Below are positions 3,284 through 11,374 of a DNA stretch of 11,374 nucleotides, piece after piece (within the stretch, counting starts at the first letter, position 1; each line of letters begins with the position of its first letter). The DNA is taken from NCBI GenBank assembly GCA_041690355.1, contig JAWLHK010000038.1:1-11374 (forward strand), read 5' to 3'. The notes under the pieces were generated by a model. The model ran no database searches. It was not told where the DNA came from and saw only the letters and a list, made by a program, of their open reading frames with translations. The position numbers were made by a program, and so were the translations under genes. Source of the DNA: JAWLHK01 sp041690355 [NCBI: bacterium] (GTDB lineage Bacteria; J088; JAWLBW01).

Positions 3284-3298
3284 CGTGACGATGTCACG
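3284..3298. promoter_or_regulatory. Palindromic operator 1, CGTGAC-N3-GTCACG
   Basis: A perfect 6+6 dyad with spacer GAT. Its centre is 38 bp from that of the next copy. Its arms contain GTGAC/GTCAC, the form GTSAC. Confidence 0.65.
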
Positions 3299-3321: not shown

Positions 3322-3336
3322 CGTGACCACGTCACG
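3322..3336. promoter_or_regulatory. Palindromic operator 2, CGTGAC-N3-GTCACG
   Basis: The same dyad as at 3284 with spacer CAC. It ends 4 nt before the weak -35 candidate at 3341. Confidence 0.65.
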
Positions 3337-3472: not shown

Positions 3473-3487
3473 TGTGACGCGGTCACG
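3473..3487. promoter_or_regulatory. Palindromic operator 3, GTGAC-N3-GTCAC
   Basis: A perfect 5+5 dyad (3474-3486, spacer GCG) in the leader of the methyltransferase gene, 17 nt before its SD. The possible GTG start at 3474 lies inside this dyad, a further reason to prefer the ATG at 3516. Confidence 0.6.
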
Positions 3488-5861: not shown

Positions 5862-6599
5862 ATGCACATCGAGGCGCACGACCTCCTTCAGCGGTTCATC
5901 GAGCGCCTGAAGGCGGCGGAAGACCCGGAGGAGTTGGAACGAGTCTTTCAGGAGACGGTGGCGGAGCTCGGCTTCAAGTACTTCGCCTACCACGTCGTGT
6001 CGATCGGCGGCGTGGGCGATCGCCTCCCCTACGCCATCACCAACTACGCCGACGAATGGGCCAGGCGGTACGTCCACGCCGGTTATCTGCAAATCGACCC
6101 GGTCACCGGCGAGGCGCCGCATCGGGTGGTGCCCTACGGCTGGCGGGAACTGATGGCGCCGGAGCGTCTGACGCCGCTACAGCGCCAGATGTTCTTCGAA
6201 GCGGAAGACTTCGGCATTTGCGATGGCCTCACCATCCCGATGCACGGCCATGGCCGCGAGTTCGCCACCATGTCGCTCGTGCCCGACGGCAAGGCACCGT
6301 CGGCGGATATCCATCTCCTGCATCTGCTGTCGCTGTACTACCACCAGCACAGCCGTTCCATTTTGCTGGAGCGTGCAATGAGTCCGCCGCGGGCGAAGGC
6401 ACTGCTGTCGCCGCGGGAGAAGGAAACCCTGCAATGGGTGGCGGTCGGCAAGAGTGCCTGGGAGATCTCCGAGATCCTGGGCATTGCCGAGAAAAGCGTC
6501 GAATTCCACGTTGAGAACGCCAAACGCAAACTGGGCGTCTTCAACCGGACGCACGCCGTCGTCAAGGCGATCATGCTGGGCCTGATCCAGGGCCAGTGA
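5862..6599 (+). CDS. luxR: LuxR-family acyl-homoserine-lactone-responsive transcriptional regulator
   Basis: 245 aa. The N-terminal autoinducer-binding domain (about 1-165) keeps the family's ligand-pocket residues: the Trp and Tyr of EWARRYVHAGYL, Asp-Pro in QIDPVTG, Trp in YGWREL and Gly in DFGICDG. The C-terminal HTH (about 180-243) has LSPREKETLQWVAVGKSAWEISEILGI, with the conserved Glu, Leu and Gly, then the recognition part KSVEFHVENAKRKLGV. The start at 5862 is chosen because GGAG lies 8 nt upstream and the length is then normal for the family. An in-frame ORF begins further upstream at 5742. It should bind an acyl-homoserine lactone, probably the LuxI product, and then DNA dyads such as those at 5782 and 6605. 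luxI follows 118 nt downstream. Confidence 0.93.
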   Translation: MHIEAHDLLQRFIERLKAAEDPEELERVFQETVAELGFKYFAYHVVSIGGVGDRLPYAITNYADEWARRYVHAGYLQIDPVTGEAPHRVVPYGWRELMAPERLTPLQRQMFFEAEDFGICDGLTIPMHGHGREFATMSLVPDGKAPSADIHLLHLLSLYYHQHSRSILLERAMSPPRAKALLSPREKETLQWVAVGKSAWEISEILGIAEKSVEFHVENAKRKLGVFNRTHAVVKAIMLGLIQGQ

Positions 6600-6604
6600 C
6601 CGCC

Positions 6605-6639
6605 GTTATTCCCCTGGCGTTTTTCCCAGGGGGAATAAC
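6605..6639. promoter_or_regulatory. Long inverted repeat, candidate lux box and/or luxR terminator
   Basis: GTTATTCCCCTGG (6605-6617), a CGTTTTT loop and CCCAGGGGGAATAAC (6625-6639) make a near-perfect dyad with one unpaired base. It starts 5 nt after the luxR stop and abuts the -35 position of the luxI promoter candidate, the usual place of a LuxR box. There is no T-tract after it, so termination is less likely than operator function. Confidence 0.6.
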
Positions 6640-6664
6640 CGGGGGGAAACCACCCAGCTAATAT
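6636..6664 (+). promoter_or_regulatory. Candidate luxI promoter
   Basis: A good -10 TAATAT (6659-6664) has no matching -35 at 17 nt (TAACCG, 6636-6641). A poor -35 beside an activator dyad is what a LuxR-activated promoter usually shows. Confidence 0.4.
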
Positions 6665-7644: not shown

Positions 7645-8121
7645 ATGCCGAAGGACACTGCACGACGGAAGCCCCACCGGGGACGCTGCCCGGACGGCTC
7701 GCCCAATCCCGTCGATGTCCATGTGGGTCAGCGCCTGCGGTTGCGGCGGACGCTTCTCGGCCTTACTCAGGAAAAGCTGGGCGAAGCCCTCGGGGTGACC
7801 TTCCAGCAGGTGCAGAAGTATGAGCGCGGGAGCAACCGGATAGGTAGCAGTCGCCTGTTCGACCTCAGCCGGATCCTCGATGTCTCCGTCGGCTACTTCT
7901 ACGAGGACATGCCGGAGAGCATTCAGGCGCGAAGCCCCCGGCGCATGAACGGCCGCATGGACCCGCTGCCCGAGCCCGAGCCCGACCCCATGAGCAGGCG
8001 CGAGACCCTGGAGCTGGTGCGAGCTTACTACCGCATCGGCGATCCGACGCTGCGAAGGCGAGTGCTTGATCTTGTTCGGGCTGCCGCGACACGTCGCGTC
8101 GATGCCGAATCGGCGGATTGA
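7645..8121 (+). CDS. XRE-family helix-turn-helix transcriptional regulator
   Basis: 158 aa. The HTH domain lies at about residues 26-90: VGQRLRLRRTLLGLTQEKLG, then EALGVTFQQVQKYERGSNRI and SSRLFDLSRILDVSVGYFYE, the classic Cro/CI-type five-helix pattern seen in many alphaproteobacterial regulators. The C-terminal part is a Pro/Glu-rich linker and a helical tail (LELVRAYYRIGDPTLRRRVLDLVRAA). The start at 7645 is chosen because GAGGAGG lies just upstream. The longer frame from 7561 would begin in the previous terminator. It is transcribed alone after the luxI terminator. Its target is unknown. The 21-bp repeat array that begins about 70 nt after it, or its own upstream tandem repeat, are candidates. 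Confidence 0.9.
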   Translation: MPKDTARRKPHRGRCPDGSPNPVDVHVGQRLRLRRTLLGLTQEKLGEALGVTFQQVQKYERGSNRIGSSRLFDLSRILDVSVGYFYEDMPESIQARSPRRMNGRMDPLPEPEPDPMSRRETLELVRAYYRIGDPTLRRRVLDLVRAAATRRVDAESAD

Positions 8122-8145
8122 CTGACAGCAGCCCCGCGCGTTACG

Positions 8146-8167
8146 GCGCCACCGCGCCCAGTGGCGC
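8146..8167 (+). terminator. Possible terminator hairpin after the XRE gene
   Basis: GCGCCAC (8146-8152) and GTGGCGC (8161-8167) make a perfect 7-bp stem with an 8-nt loop, 25 nt after the stop codon. No T-run follows, so it is a weak or rho-assisted candidate. Confidence 0.4.
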
Positions 8168-8192
8168 TGGTCGACCCACGTCGGCGACAAGC

Positions 8193-8340
8193 GCTGCTGG
8201 AGATTTCCGTTACTAGATGCTGCAAAGTCGATTCATAATTCTATTTTGCCGTGTCCAGTCATGAGAACCGCGATTCCTGCTTGGAGATCGTCGCTACAAT
8301 TCGCGGGAAATTCGTTACCTAAGTCGGAATTTTGCGATTC
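8193..8340 (+). repeat. Array A: seven degenerate direct repeats with 21-bp period
   Basis: A six-base core of CGTTAC/CGATTC type begins at 8208 (CGTTAC), 8229 (CGATTC), 8250 (CGTGTC), 8271 (CGATTC), 8292 (CGCTAC), 8313 (CGTTAC) and 8335 (CGATTC). Steps are 21, 21, 21, 21, 21 and 22. Most units carry a purine stretch like GGGAAA just before the core. An outlying CGTTAC occurs at 8139. The region is more A/T-rich than its surroundings and contains no gene. Spacing of two helical turns implies protein sites on one face of the DNA. Confidence 0.8.
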
Positions 8341-8355
8341 AGAATGCCGAAATAA

Positions 8356-8694
8356 GGGGGGGACGCCGTACAGAGGGTTCCGCCACCCGTCGTGAGGGCA
8401 GCATCCAGGGTGCGCATCCCCGACCGCGTCATGCGCTGGTTCGGCCAGGGCTCGGAAGGCCTCGGCGAGGAGCAGGACAACGACCAGTCCGTGGCCTTCA
8501 TCGTCGGGCACACGACGCGCGGCGCCCACAGCACCATGCAGGGCGCCGGGCGCGCCACCGCCGGGATGCTCGCCGGGCAGGGCGGAGGAGCGGCCGCGAA
8601 GAACACCGGGAGAATCGCCGATCCCAGAGGTGGAGGCGGCGGCGACGGCCGCGCGAAGCGGGGGAACCCAGGCGGCGAGGGCAAGGTGAAATAA
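8356..8694 (+). pseudogene. Gly-rich protein, probably the C-terminal remnant of a larger gene
   Basis: The frame is open from 8356. The first usable start is GTG at 8392 (100 aa), with others at 8410 and ATG at 8431, and none has a clear SD. The sequence RVRIPDRVMRWFGQG, EGLGEEQDNDQSVAFIVGHT, then a Gly/Ala-rich tail, reads like the C-terminus of a large protein. The VMRWFG...LGEE part faintly recalls membrane proteins of conjugation systems such as the TraY/DotA type, which is only a guess. It begins right after array A and ends 4 nt before a strong hairpin, so its 3' end appears intact while the 5' part is missing. A genuine small gene remains possible. Confidence 0.45.
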
Positions 8695-8698
8695 CGAG

Positions 8699-8724
8699 AA
8701 CGGGAGGGCTGAAGCCCTCCCGTT
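8699..8724. terminator. Bidirectional terminator between convergent genes
   Basis: AACGGGAGGGCT and AGCCCTCCCGTT form a perfect 12-bp inverted repeat around GA. It lies between the stop at 8694 and the stop of the minus-strand gene at 8746, with AA/TT at its ends. Confidence 0.7.
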
Positions 8725-8745
8725 CCGCTTCGTCCTGGCGCCCGA

Positions 8746-9108
8746 TCAGTCGGCGCGGCGCTCGGCGGGGTCGTCGATGCCCAGCTCCCGCGCGGTCGCG
8801 TCGAAGGCGCGCTCGTAGAGGTCGTGGTAGATGTGCTTGGCGTCGCCGTCGCGGAAATATTTGCCGCTGTACTGCATGAGCGGGCTGTTCTTGTGCGCCT
8901 CCTTGAAGCCGTCGAAGATGGCCTTGAGACCAGCGGCGTGGGCGGTCTTCACGGCGAGGCGGTCCTTGAGCTCATCGACCTCGGCCTCCAGTTCGCGGGC
9001 GTATTCGACCCACTTGACCAGCTTCTCGGAGATCGCCGCCGCCGCGTTGCCGTTCTTGCGGGCCGCGTTCAGTGCCGCGAGTTCGCCGATTTCCGCCGGA
9101 TTGAACAT
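8746..9108 (-). CDS. Hypothetical coiled-coil protein
   Basis: 120 aa beginning MFNPAEIGELAALNAARKNG. The start at 9108 has a textbook SD (AAAGGAGG, 5 nt away) and a good promoter upstream. The in-frame extension to 9135 would start at the promoter's transcription start. Residues about 22-52 form a charged coiled coil (SEKLVKWVEYARELEAEVDE). The C-terminal half has a more conserved-looking globular part, FDGFKEAHKNSPLMQYSGKY and IYHDLYERAFDATARELGI. There is no signal or membrane segment. Family not recognised. Array B sits immediately upstream of its promoter, so regulation through that array is likely. Confidence 0.82.
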   Translation of the reverse strand: MFNPAEIGELAALNAARKNGNAAAAISEKLVKWVEYARELEAEVDELKDRLAVKTAHAAGLKAIFDGFKEAHKNSPLMQYSGKYFRDGDAKHIYHDLYERAFDATARELGIDDPAERRAD

Positions 9109-9133
9109 GTCTGCCTCCTTTGATCTTGATGTC

Positions 9134-9163
9134 ATTGTAGCAAGGGGCGTGGGTGGGTGTCAC
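9134..9163 (-). promoter_or_regulatory. Promoter of the coiled-coil protein gene
   Basis: On the minus strand GTGACA (9163-9158), an 18-nt spacer and TACAAT (9139-9134) each differ by one base from the sigma70 consensus. The leader would be about 20 nt, containing the SD. Array B starts 20 bp upstream of the -35. Confidence 0.7.
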
Positions 9164-9182
9164 CGGCCTAAATTACAACCAC

Positions 9183-9312
9183 CGCTTTCCAAAACTCGGA
9201 AAGCGATTCGGCGCTGTGGGAAACCGTTACAAGCCTGCGGAAGCGCGTTACTTCGCGCCATGGAATTCCGTTACCTGGTTTTAGATTTTCGATTCCAGGT
9301 GGTGGAGTAACG
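9183..9312 (+). repeat. Array B: direct repeats with 21-bp period between divergent genes
   Basis: Cores start at 9204 (CGATTC), 9225, 9246 and 9269 (all CGTTAC) and 9290 (CGATTC), with a weak unit at 9183 (CGCTTT). Steps are 21, 21, 21, 23 and 21. A reversed copy, GTAACG, lies at 9307-9312. Units read like TGTGGGAAACCGTTAC. The first two units also form an exact inverted repeat, CGCTTTCC - 7 nt - GGAAAGCG (9183-9205). It lies between the promoter of the minus-strand coiled-coil gene and the small plus-strand ORF at 9331. Confidence 0.8.
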
Positions 9313-9330
9313 GGGGGAGTGGTCATCTGC

Positions 9331-9480
9331 GTGGAGCCGCATTATCCGCCCCCCAACTCTACCTTTGAATATCGGCAGGAATTGCGGATGCGAGCGCCGG
9401 GGGTGGGGCAGGCGCAGGCGGTCGTCGCGATTGACCAGGCGACGGAGGTCTGGCGCAGGCGCGACCGAACTTCGTGGTGA
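9331..9480 (+). CDS. Possible small protein of 49 aa
   Basis: From GTG at 9331 the frame reads VEPHYPPPNSTFEYRQELRM and continues to VVAIDQATEVWRRRDRTSW. G-rich SD-like sequence (GGGGGGAG, 9312-9319) lies about 11 nt upstream, and a GTG at 9319 is an in-frame alternative. The part after residue 13 is predicted helical. It starts 19 nt after array B and has sensible codon use for this G+C-rich DNA. It is too short to be certain and the family is not recognised. Confidence 0.4.
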   Translation: MEPHYPPPNSTFEYRQELRMRAPGVGQAQAVVAIDQATEVWRRRDRTSW

Positions 9481-9592
9481 ACACGACCTTGACCATGAAC
9501 GGTCCCCCCCCCGCCCGCCATCGCGACTGTTGCCGCTATTATAAGCGCCGACGGGCTGGGATGGGGCGGGGCAATGTCTTGTCAGCGCGGCA
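9481..9592. other. Non-coding stretch before array C
   Basis: It contains a run of nine C (9504-9512) and an isolated TATAAT on the minus strand (9543-9538) without a matching -35. No gene, RNA or clear promoter could be supported. Confidence 0.4.
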
Positions 9593-9609
9593 GCGTGACG
9601 GCGTCACGC
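9593..9609. promoter_or_regulatory. Fourth GTGAC-N3-GTCAC palindrome
   Basis: GCGTGAC - GGC - GTCACGC is a perfect 7+7 dyad of the same type as the three upstream of the methyltransferase. Its right arm starts in the 21-bp phase of array C (CGTCAC at 9602). Confidence 0.6.
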
Positions 9610-9733
9610 CTCGCCATGACGCCGGTTCTCCGCTGTGGGTTTCCGATTCGCGCCTGTGGATCGCCGTTACACGCCGTGGCGAAAGCGTTTCTTGTTCTCC
9701 GAAAATCGTTACAGAGGACAATAAATCCGATTC
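9602..9733 (+). repeat. Array C: direct repeats with exact 21-bp period
   Basis: Cores begin at 9644 (CGATTC), 9665 (CGTTAC), 9686 (CGTTTC), 9707 (CGTTAC) and 9728 (CGATTC), each exactly 21 bp apart. Two weaker units continue the phase leftward at 9623 (CGGTTC) and 9602 (CGTCAC). The first units carry CTGTGGGTTTC or CTGTGGATCGC before the core, like array B. Because 21 is a multiple of 3, an 88-codon frame (9474-9740) stays open through it, which I regard as spurious. Confidence 0.8.
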
Positions 9734-9771
9734 ACGATGATGAGCGTAGGGTCGGGGGGCTCCGTGACCAA

Positions 9772-9797
9772 CGAGGGGCTGGATCACCAGCCCCTCG
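9772..9797 (-). terminator. Hairpin terminator of the truncated minus-strand gene
   Basis: CGAGGGGCTGG - ATCA - CCAGCCCCTCG is a perfect 11-bp stem, 11 nt beyond the stop at 9809 on the minus strand. Only two T follow, so strength is uncertain. Confidence 0.6.
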
Positions 9798-9808
9798 CGC
9801 GGCATTCA

Positions 9809-9953
9809 TCAGTGCAGGCGACGTCCATCATCCGCCGAGACCGCCAGCGCCCGACGCACTGCGGCCTTTAGGCGTCGCGGCGATCCGCCCCTGATGAAGG
9901 CGTCAAGCAGCACGCCCTCCGTCGCCTCGTGCAGCGTCGGCAGGTCGTGCGGG
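9809..9953 (-). pseudogene. C-terminal end of an unknown gene cut by the IS
   Basis: 47 codons read [20 protein letters not shown], then RGGSPRRLKAAVRRALAVSA, ending in RRLH and a TGA, followed by a terminator hairpin. Codon use and the hairpin indicate a real 3' gene end. The frame enters the IS inverted repeat at its upstream side, so the 5' part is lost or lies elsewhere. It looks helical and basic. Family not recognised. Confidence 0.5.
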
Positions 9954-9981
9954 GTGAACCGCCCCGGGTTTGCCGGAGGCT
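9953..9981 (+). repeat. Left terminal inverted repeat of the IS
   Basis: It begins GGTGAACCGCCCCGG and ends CCGGAGGCT, an exact reverse complement of 11249-11277. Confidence 0.9.
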
Positions 9982-10008
9982 CCAACTTCTGAGTAGGATG
10001 GAGCCATC

Positions 10009-10334
10009 ATGAGCAAGACCACGAACAAATATTCCGCTGAAGTGCGCGAGCGCGCGGTTCGCATGGTGCGGGAGCACGAGGGCCGGCACGACTCCCGTTG
10101 GGCGGCGATCGTCTCGATTTCGTCGAAGATCGGCTGCGCTCCGCAGACGCTGAACGAGTGGGTCAAGAAGGCCGACGTCGACAGCGGGCACCGGGCCGGC
10201 GTTCCCACCGAAATGGCCGAGAGAATGAAGGCCCGGAGCGCGAGAACCGGGAACTCCGGCAGGCCAACGAGATCCTGCGCAAGGTGAGCGCTTATTTTGC
10301 CCAGGCGGAGCTCGACCGCCGACCGAAATCATGA
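10009..10334 (+). pseudogene. IS3-family transposase orfA, frameshifted
   Basis: The helix-turn-helix subunit that binds the IS ends. It starts at the ATG at 10009 and reads [20 protein letters not shown], then an HTH ([25 protein letters not shown]). After [12 protein letters not shown] the family's leucine-zipper segment (L)[31 protein letters not shown] continues in the next-lower frame. A single base is missing near 10233-10236, where GCCCGGAG stands for an expected GCC CTG GAG. As read, orfA stops at 10287 with a wrong tail. In the repaired frame it ends at 10334, overlapping the orfB start (ATGA). The site is not a slippery heptamer, so it looks like a mutation and not the programmed shift. 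Confidence 0.8.
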
Positions 10335-11236
10335 GCGCCTTTATCGACGATCATCGTGAGGAGCATGGGGTCGAGCCGATCTGCAAGGTGTTGCCGATCG
10401 CCCCGTCTACCTACTACGAGCGCCTGGCGAAGCGCGCGGACCCGTCCCGCCAGTCGGCCCGTGCGCAGCGCGATGCGGACCTGCGGCCTGAGATAATGCG
10501 CGTCTTCAACGACAACTTCCGGGTCTACGGAGCGCGCAAGGTCTGGCGCCAGATGCGCCGGGAAGGCTTCGACATCGCCCGCTGCACTGTCGAGCGGCTG
10601 ATGATGTCGCTGGGTCTCGCTGGCGCCCGCCGGGGCAGGACAGTAAAGACAACCGTCCCGGACAAGGCGGCGCCCTGTCCGCTGGACCGCGTGAACCGCC
10701 AGTTCTGGGTGGCCGCGCCGGACACGCTCTGGGTCTCGGATTTTACCTACGTCGCCACCTGGCAGGGCTTCGTTTACGTGGCCTTCGTCATCGACGCTTT
10801 TGCCCGCCGCATCGTCGGTTGGCGGGTCAGCAGGACAGCCCATGCCGGATTTGTCCTCGACGCCCTCGAACAGGCCGTCCATCAGCGCCGGCCAGCCAAA
10901 GGGGCCGGCCTGGTCCACCATTCCGACCGCGGGTCTCAATACCTGTCCATCAAGTACACCGAGCGCCTGGCCGAGGCCGATATCGACCCTTCGGTTGGTA
11001 GCGTCGGCGACAGCTACGACAACGCCCTGGCCGAAACCATCAATGGCCTGTTCAAGGCCGAGGTCATTCATCGGCGCGGGCCGTGGCGCAGCTTCGACGC
11101 CGTGGAGTACGCCACGCTCGAATGGGTCGACTGGTTCAACAACCGCCGACTACTCGAGCCCATCGGCAACATTCCTCCCGCCGAGGCCGAGGCAAACTAC
11201 TACGACGCCCTGGCACAGCCCGCCATGGCCGCGTAA
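10331..11236 (+). CDS. IS3-family transposase orfB (DDE catalytic subunit)
   Basis: 301 aa. An N-terminal HTH-like region (HGVEPICKVLPIAPSTYYE, then VYGARKVWRQMRREG) precedes the retroviral-integrase-like core with Asp137 (WVSDFTYV), Asp199 (HHSDRGSQY) and Glu235 (NALAETINGL). That is the D-D-35-E spacing exactly. It ends with PAEAEANYYDALAQ, as usual in this IS group. In IS3 elements it is normally made as an orfAB fusion by -1 frameshifting. The orfA mutation upstream probably leaves this copy unable to make the fusion. Confidence 0.92.
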   Translation: MSAFIDDHREEHGVEPICKVLPIAPSTYYERLAKRADPSRQSARAQRDADLRPEIMRVFNDNFRVYGARKVWRQMRREGFDIARCTVERLMMSLGLAGARRGRTVKTTVPDKAAPCPLDRVNRQFWVAAPDTLWVSDFTYVATWQGFVYVAFVIDAFARRIVGWRVSRTAHAGFVLDALEQAVHQRRPAKGAGLVHHSDRGSQYLSIKYTERLAEADIDPSVGSVGDSYDNALAETINGLFKAEVIHRRGPWRSFDAVEYATLEWVDWFNNRRLLEPIGNIPPAEAEANYYDALAQPAMAA

Positions 11237-11248
11237 CTAAGACCAATC

Positions 11249-11277
11249 AGCCTCCGGCAAACCCGGGGCGGTTCACC
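11249..11277 (-). repeat. Right terminal inverted repeat of the IS
   Basis: Exact reverse complement of 9953-9981, 13 nt after the orfB stop. Confidence 0.9.
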
Positions 11278-11374
11278 GCGTCCTCAACATCGTCGATGAC
11301 TTCAGCAGGGAGAGCCCCGGTCAGCTCGTCGATGTGTCGATCTCCGGCGACCGCATGGCGCGGTTCCTCGACCG
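11277..11374 (+). pseudogene. Fragment of a second IS3-family transposase (IS407-like orfB)
   Basis: The frame RVLNIVDDFSRESPGQLVDV, continuing SISGDRMARFLD, is the internal VVDDFTRE...SLSG..V...LDR region of IS407-type orfB proteins. It starts at the outer edge of the first IS and runs to the window end. Its 5' part is not on the other side of the IS. Whether it continues intact beyond the window cannot be seen. Confidence 0.75.

Follow-up and report, generated by a model that had tools for sequence, protein, structure and literature searches.

The stretch of DNA analysed here, referred to as the window, is the 11,374-nucleotide contig JAWLHK010000038.1 of GenBank assembly GCA_041690355.1, from the bacterium JAWLHK01 sp041690355, and it carries three arrays of short, degenerate repeats between positions 8,193 and 9,733, all on the + strand. 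Array A (8208..8340) has seven cores, two of them degenerate, at 8208 (CGTTAC), 8229 (CGATTC), 8250 (CGTGTC), 8271 (CGATTC), 8292 (CGCTAC), 8313 (CGTTAC) and 8335 (CGATTC), with steps of 21, 21, 21, 21, 21 and 22 bp. Array B (9204..9295) has five cores at 9204 (CGATTC), 9225, 9246 and 9269 (all CGTTAC) and 9290 (CGATTC), with steps of 21, 21, 23 and 21 bp, and it lies ~95-190 bp upstream of the ATG at 9108 of the minus-strand gene 8746..9108. The five cores of array C (9644..9733) are found at 9644 (CGATTC), 9665 (CGTTAC), 9686 (CGTTTC), 9707 (CGTTAC) and 9728 (CGATTC), and every step is exactly 21 bp. An original prediction, made from the sequence of the window, had placed 17 cores at these positions, and all 17 were confirmed, as was the 21-bp step, with the last step of A (22 bp) and the third of B (23 bp) as the exceptions. 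The CGWTWC core that it proposed describes 15 of the 17, and the cores at 8250 and 8292 break it. All cores face one way, as had been described, with a reversed copy, GTAACG, at 9307. A further CGWTWC at 8139 lies outside the arrays.

Phasing was assessed over the region 8101-9800. CGWTWC pairs at lag 21 numbered 8, and 1000 dinucleotide shuffles did not match this periodicity (lags 21 and 22 combined, mean 0.006, maximum 1; at most 2 at any single lag). For the looser CGNNNC pattern, whose autocorrelation had been suggested as a check, 16 pairs were found at lag 21 and 4 at lag 22; the sum of 20 exceeds the shuffle maximum of 15 (mean 4.8), but some single lag reached up to 21 in the shuffles, and this test is less decisive than the CGWTWC test. 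Because the CGWTWC motif was picked after the data had been seen, its recurrence in other genomes carries more weight. Tandem Repeats Finder reported no repeat at score 30 in 8100-9800, and the sites are therefore phased rather than copied, unlike a minisatellite built of head-to-tail copies ~70% alike. The G+C content is ~45% across array A (8200-8349) and 53-55% across B and C, as against 57-77% in most neighbouring windows. A CTGTGGGAAA-like lead had also been described. It was partly visible in 12 window units (consensus about CtgTGGAAatc), but its information is low and it differs from the lead of the other locus sets. The profile R1, whose training arrays included A and C, matched array A at 8221-8302 (51.9 bits) and array C at 9678-9737, and it matched array B, which was outside the training, at 9197-9252 (13.7 bits) and 9263-9297 (16.7 bits).

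Each array is followed by a run of 6-7 G, which begins 21, 22 and 26 bp past the first base of the final core in A, B and C, respectively; the + strand of the window holds six runs of at least six G in total. A longer motif around the run, defined as RRAGTAAYGGGGGGA, is called the G-box here. The end of array A, GAAATAAGGGGGGGA (8349..8363, + strand), has two mismatches to it, and the G-box of array B, GGAGTAACGGGGGGA (9304..9318, + strand), is an exact match, in which 11 bp separate the last CGATTC from GTAACGGGGGG. The G-run after array C (9754..9759, + strand) is a weak G-box, unmatched at up to three mismatches. By chance a mean of 1.01 G-box matches would be expected in the window at up to three mismatches. 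The same 11-bp spacing from CGATTC to G-box was seen in L107, L153, L201 and 11 viral-contig loci. The G-box had not been reported by the original prediction.

The G-box was then used for retrieval, with no array information. A search of 121 Rhizobiaceae genomes for RRAGTAAYGGGGGGA returned 30 sites in 20 genomes, with up to three sites per genome, and the reversed pattern, used as a control, gave 1 site. A facing chain of at least three units was present at 25 of the 30 loci under a relaxed rule (CGWTWC or TGATTC units, steps of 20, 21, 22 or 42), and the strict array rule was satisfied at 13 of 30 versus 0 of 600 shuffles. Arrays at these loci reach 13 units. A small protein is encoded at 26 of the 30. 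The five loci with no relaxed chain were L174, L178, L194, L200 and L203, and the first four of these also lacked a small gene at E 1e-3. Downstream of the small gene stands an opposed unit, consisting of CGATTC, 11 or 23 bp, and then GTAAYGGGGGGA; the gene is thus bracketed by sites. This composite is sharply conserved. Beyond the family, the order-level search found the G-box in 2 of 43 genomes, one of them a chance match inside a coding region as judged by eye and the other, locus L156 of genome G304, without a recognised small gene. A near-identical pattern occurred in 1 of 385 genomes drawn from the class, again at a locus where no small gene was recognised.

Comparison of related loci showed that the cores are more constrained than the spacers. 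Among three paralogues in one genome, which were fetched by G-box, picked for the longest arrays and set in register from the last core, the cores differed at 0-1 of 72 positions versus 31-53 of 180 in the spacers (p = 2e-5 to 4e-8 over three pairs, which are not independent). In seven Rhizobium loci, 1 of 30 core sites was variable versus 19 of 60 sites outside the cores, a comparison that is biased because the pattern used to retrieve these loci already fixes most of the cores; L065 was left out since it did not fit the regular expression. In a pool of 31 chosen loci, which includes the window as well as loci that array patterns had retrieved, successive same-strand CGWTWC steps of up to 60 bp were exactly 21 bp in 162 of 233 cases and 42 bp in 20. 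Information lies mostly within the 6-bp core and is not spread over most of the unit; the 15-bp lead holds 3.0-5.4 bits in the Hoeflea, Rhizobiaceae and window sets and 7.2-9.4 bits in the G411 and Rhodovibrio sets. At array positions of the loci counted, the cores were CGATTC, CGTTTC and CGTTAC, with CGATAC absent, and skipped inner steps mostly held near-miss cores. A cluster of CcrM methylation sites (GANTC) was considered and rejected, as CGTTAC and CGTTTC contain no GANTC; the N position of GATTC was altered in only 1 of 16 skipped inner steps (CGAGTC; Rhizobiaceae and Hoeflea set).

Pattern scans located further arrays. A four-unit mixed pattern run over GTDB species genomes gave 42 stretches, of which 10 were convincing by eye as degenerate arrays (L085, L086, L090, L097, L100, L101, L107, L108, L111 and L125), all in Alphaproteobacteria; the groups represented are Rhodovibrio, Hoeflea and Rhizobiaceae. 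The Rhodovibrio locus, L125, has ten units at 21 bp, and no G-box was present within the 8 kb examined. The other 32 stretches were judged by eye to be minisatellites, coding repeats or chance. In viral contigs, a four-unit CGWTWC scan gave 74 stretches, those listed being mostly coding or copied tandem repeats, and only L065 looked related; a three-unit mixed scan gave 12 stretches, and again only L065 was convincing. Copied-unit 21-bp repeats were encountered in Sporosarcina, Oceanobacillus and cyanobacterial genomes (L095, L110, L112, L093, L109 and L113), where the CGWTTC core is common to all because the search pattern fixed it.

In Rhizobiaceae the small protein gene encodes ~100-115 amino acids and has the array upstream; in Rhizobium sp. 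R635 (L085) it occupies 6043-6354. The predicted structure, from an alignment of 15 sequences (L097, L100, L108 and L165 left out), consists of a long helix at the N terminus followed by three more (mean predicted local distance difference test score, pLDDT, 81.6). The family profile was built without two of 12 rows, which were mis-framed. One of 15 members touches a single PHROG of unknown function (E 0.0039), and a sequence search of the PDB gave 9 sequences, mostly designed helical proteins.

AAA ATPase and M41/Zn-protease genes lie beside the module in L107, L145, L146, L148, L151, L152 and L153, according to Pfam or plasmid annotation, and they are upstream of it in all of these but L148. 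At L144, ABC transporter genes are found upstream in place of this pair. A split FtsH-like pair, in which the AAA ATPase and the M41/Zn-protease are separate, was noted in L146, L148, L151-L153, L170, L207 and L210; it recurs on Rhizobiaceae plasmids, several times near repABC and the small gene. The small gene itself lies ~7-26 kb from repABC in 7 of 8 measured plasmids and 43.5 kb away in Tardiphaga. Four of the 12 plasmid records were left unmeasured (two Shinella, unannotated; pNgVX; Hoeflea), and the Hoeflea record showed no repABC in the parts read. The link of the module to maintenance is only suggestive. The gene that follows the module on the Tardiphaga plasmid (L150, 6810-7496) starts with a ParA-like Walker motif, KGGCGRS, and has no Pfam match; in 25 loci including the window, motifs of this type occur in two proteins only, this one and RepA itself. 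In L148 and L208, genes annotated as helix-turn-helix are located some kb away from the module; nothing in the analysis points to the XRE protein of the window as the binder. Integrase genes were found in L065 and, as a weak match, in L146.

The window begins with tRNA-Met (23-99), and a serine recombinase frame reaches its 3' side (within 23-1678), which together form a likely island attachment site. Next in order are an HTH_32-like protein (below cut-off), a C5-cytosine methylase, LuxR, LuxI and an XRE protein. Plasmid records gave no match to the HTH_32-like protein, and 379 of them matched the methylase, every one at <60% identity. Between the LuxR and LuxI genes is an inverted repeat, GTTATTCCCC...GGGGAATAAC (6605-6650), and the G-run after it fits the G-box with three mismatches. 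The palindrome GTGAC-NNN-GTCAC occurs four times, three copies being around the start of the methylase gene (3285-3297, 3323-3335 and 3474-3486) and one just left of array C (9595-9607); it is a possible operator common to both regions. To the right of array A lies a C-terminal remnant of a DotA/TraY-family conjugation protein (8392..8694, + strand), which matches Bosea DotA/TraY at E 2e-4 across 46 amino acids (tblastn) with the same convergent order. The minus-strand gene with array B in its upstream region (8746..9108) encodes 120 amino acids from the ATG at 9108, or 129 from 9135. Homologues were found by tblastn in 2 plasmid records, Bosea pBSY19_1 and Azospirillum ramasamyi, and in both the gene is convergent with a DotA/TraY gene; relatives were present in 0 of 385 alphaproteobacterial genomes and in none of the viral contigs. 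Because of the DotA/TraY remnant and this convergent arrangement on plasmids, we infer that the window appears to cover the end of an island that is, or once was, conjugative. To the right of the G-run of array C is the 3' end of an open frame (9812..10006, - strand), which occupies the position held by the small gene in the relatives, as read from the sequence, and gave a negative result in the search with the small-protein profile. An IS3-family element with an ALIL pseudoknot (9955-11280) runs into this frame, and a second transposase-like fragment was seen by eye after it, at the end of the window.

In viral contigs the 11-bp form of the G-box occurs in 11 stretches. All 11 boxes also have RRA before and A after them, and at 10 of 11 a minus-strand open frame of at least 75 amino acids ends within 250 bp of the box. 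These frames gave weak scores against the small-protein profile, the best being L167 at 6e-8 with few sequences searched. L162 and L165 have the same protein. In L161, L162, L165 and L167 the G-box overlaps the last codons of the small gene (PPITS or PPITP). Rep3_N-like initiators are encoded at 6 of the 11 loci, two of these with scores under the Pfam cut-off, and other repeats lie upstream of the small genes and Rep genes, as judged by eye.

The element is real: a recurring, constrained array that has a boundary motif and is accompanied by a gene family, which is more than the original prediction had claimed. We read the arrays as probable operator or centromere-like tracks for a protein that would coat one face of the DNA and work in the manner of StbA, and give this reading a rough probability of 0.45. 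Each array would be a one-sided track of weak putative sites for a DNA-binding protein, whose subunits would contact CG(AT/TT/TA)C every two helical turns; the coat would spread cooperatively along that face and stop at the G-box. Fixed cores at two turns, freer spacers and a single orientation are what such a cooperative coat would be expected to need. In the relatives, the tracks stand upstream of the gene for the small, predicted helical protein, with the opposed G-box unit after it, and the binder is most likely the small protein itself, which would then be autoregulated. Several promoters of the mobile element would come under the control of the coat together, and the coated track may also act in maintenance like a centromere, as is the case for StbA on direct repeats. 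Of the possibilities raised by the original prediction, those that agree best with the relatives are a polymerising regulator of several promoters or a partition site; in the relatives the arrays are upstream of the small gene, the cores of an array point one way, and cores and spacing are kept while the spacers vary.

A number of results weigh against this reading. The small protein reached no curated family cut-off in Pfam or NCBIfam, and no PDB structure was a convincing fold match (nothing from Foldseek at E 0.001 or better; the best VIA score was Z 5.0). The search for the small protein in the window with the family profile was negative, and L107 has arrays and a G-box, but no small gene was recognised there. 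In the window the arrays and G-runs are on the same strand, unlike the bracketed layout of the relatives. Since the small gene was not recognised there, the window arrays would serve as regulatory regions of a module that has decayed or is seen only in part. A class-wide search of 385 genomes with the array profile picked up the centre genome alone, in a shallow first pass. No array was present within 16 kb at the Bosea and Azospirillum loci homologous to the window gene pair, and over the whole records Bosea gave no array-profile match and Azospirillum one weak match (E 0.077), far away. The original prediction held that the arrays should be retained in homologous loci; this failed in these two, the only ones found and both distant, and was borne out by the Rhizobiaceae module. 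Proximity to repABC is weak, with a combined p of 0.038 from plasmids that are related and for which some rep end coordinates were estimated. By our estimate, 11 matches in viral contigs are about the number expected by chance for so short a pattern, and profile R1 had no match at E 1 in any of the 11 viral records, so that box and array are separable.

StbA on the stbDRs of R388 is probably the nearest studied case known to us. The portion of PMC3098194 that describes the system places the stbDRs around the stbABC promoter, reports that they recur in other R388 promoters, and assigns StbA and the stbDRs to plasmid stability. In that portion the stbDRs are 9 bp long and spaced by 2 nt, whereas the window arrays have a 6-bp core every 21 bp, and the G-box has no counterpart in it. 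In the relatives a small gene, whose product is a putative DNA binder, lies directly downstream of the arrays, and this gene was not recognised in the window. A further difference is that the small protein matches no family searched. No StbA was among the matches listed for the small protein in the Pfam, PHROG, PDB-sequence and fold searches, and no direct comparison with StbA was made.

ParR/parC and omega/parS are direct-repeat arrays in promoter regions that are coated by small proteins. Their layout is like that of the arrays described here, but their period and core differ.

Plain Rep iterons are less likely. In this explanation, which we consider improbable, the arrays would be the iterons of a theta origin, and a Rep_3-type initiator would bind them and melt adjacent AT-rich DNA. 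The iterons of RepE, RepA and TrfA are AT-rich direct repeats at about two helical turns, and the same-strand phasing at 21 bp and the AT-rich array A are alike in this respect; the Rep3_N-like initiators at 6 of the 11 viral-contig loci and the Azospirillum homologue of the 8746-9108 gene, ~1 kb from an annotated replication initiation protein, point the same way. Classical iterons are, however, conserved over most of the unit, whereas in the arrays it is largely confined to 6 bp of each unit. None of the 11 G-box-bearing viral records matched the array profile, the repeats upstream of their Rep genes being of other kinds by eye, and with three arrays in 1.5 kb no Rep was found among the 10 window proteins tested, the window being part of the element. 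The iteron-like origin of the original prediction thus stood in form and failed in these details.

The arrays may instead be a true centromere, parC-like, at which a small adaptor would link the element with a motor, ParA-like or of another kind. The position of the arrays upstream of the small gene in the relatives, the 7-26 kb between some modules and repABC, and the Walker motif in the next gene in Tardiphaga all agree with this. The motif class is restricted to two of the 25 loci, though, and the Tardiphaga gene lacks a Pfam match; repABC carries its own partition proteins (RepA and RepB are annotated), and up to three G-box sites per genome would be odd for a single centromere. We regard this explanation, too, as unlikely.

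It is still more doubtful that the arrays are ends of a mobile element, bound by a recombinase or transposase, with the G-box near the terminus. The opposed sites that bracket the small gene, the sharp conservation of the CGATTC composite at 11 or 23 bp and the integrase genes in L065 and L146 would suit such ends, and in two of three G411 paralogue pairs BLAST similarity stops at the GAATCG of the G-box. The third pair, however, stays similar far beyond the G-box, the flanks past it still look like an array unit by eye, and the three arrays of the window share one orientation. Coincidence or a coding minisatellite is highly improbable: most other pattern-scan matches were of that kind and the G-box is weak at array C, but Tandem Repeats Finder reported nothing in 8100-9800, the shuffles did not reproduce the phasing, and the module recurs through G-box retrieval with constraint between paralogues.

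Tentatively, and with considerable doubt, the one-face coat may belong to a new maintenance or regulatory system of alphaproteobacterial mobile elements, in which helical proteins of ~110 amino acids would polymerise on 21-bp CG(AT/TT/TA)C tracks with a GTAAYGGGGGG stop; plasmids, Rep_3-like phage-like elements and conjugative islands would carry variants of it, in many cases next to the split FtsH-like AAA/M41 protease pair. In the open-licence literature, neither the 11-letter G-box string nor 21-bp iteron-like repeats with Rhizobium were found, a description elsewhere being possible, and searches with the core hexamers gave no relevant title among the matches listed. The repeat thereby becomes a testable module, with a compact motif, a small protein and a fixed geometry across Rhizobiaceae plasmids and genomes, and its G-box is found in viral contigs as well. 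If the small protein binds the track, the module would provide a simple model of DNA polymerisation along one face and a marker for finding such elements.

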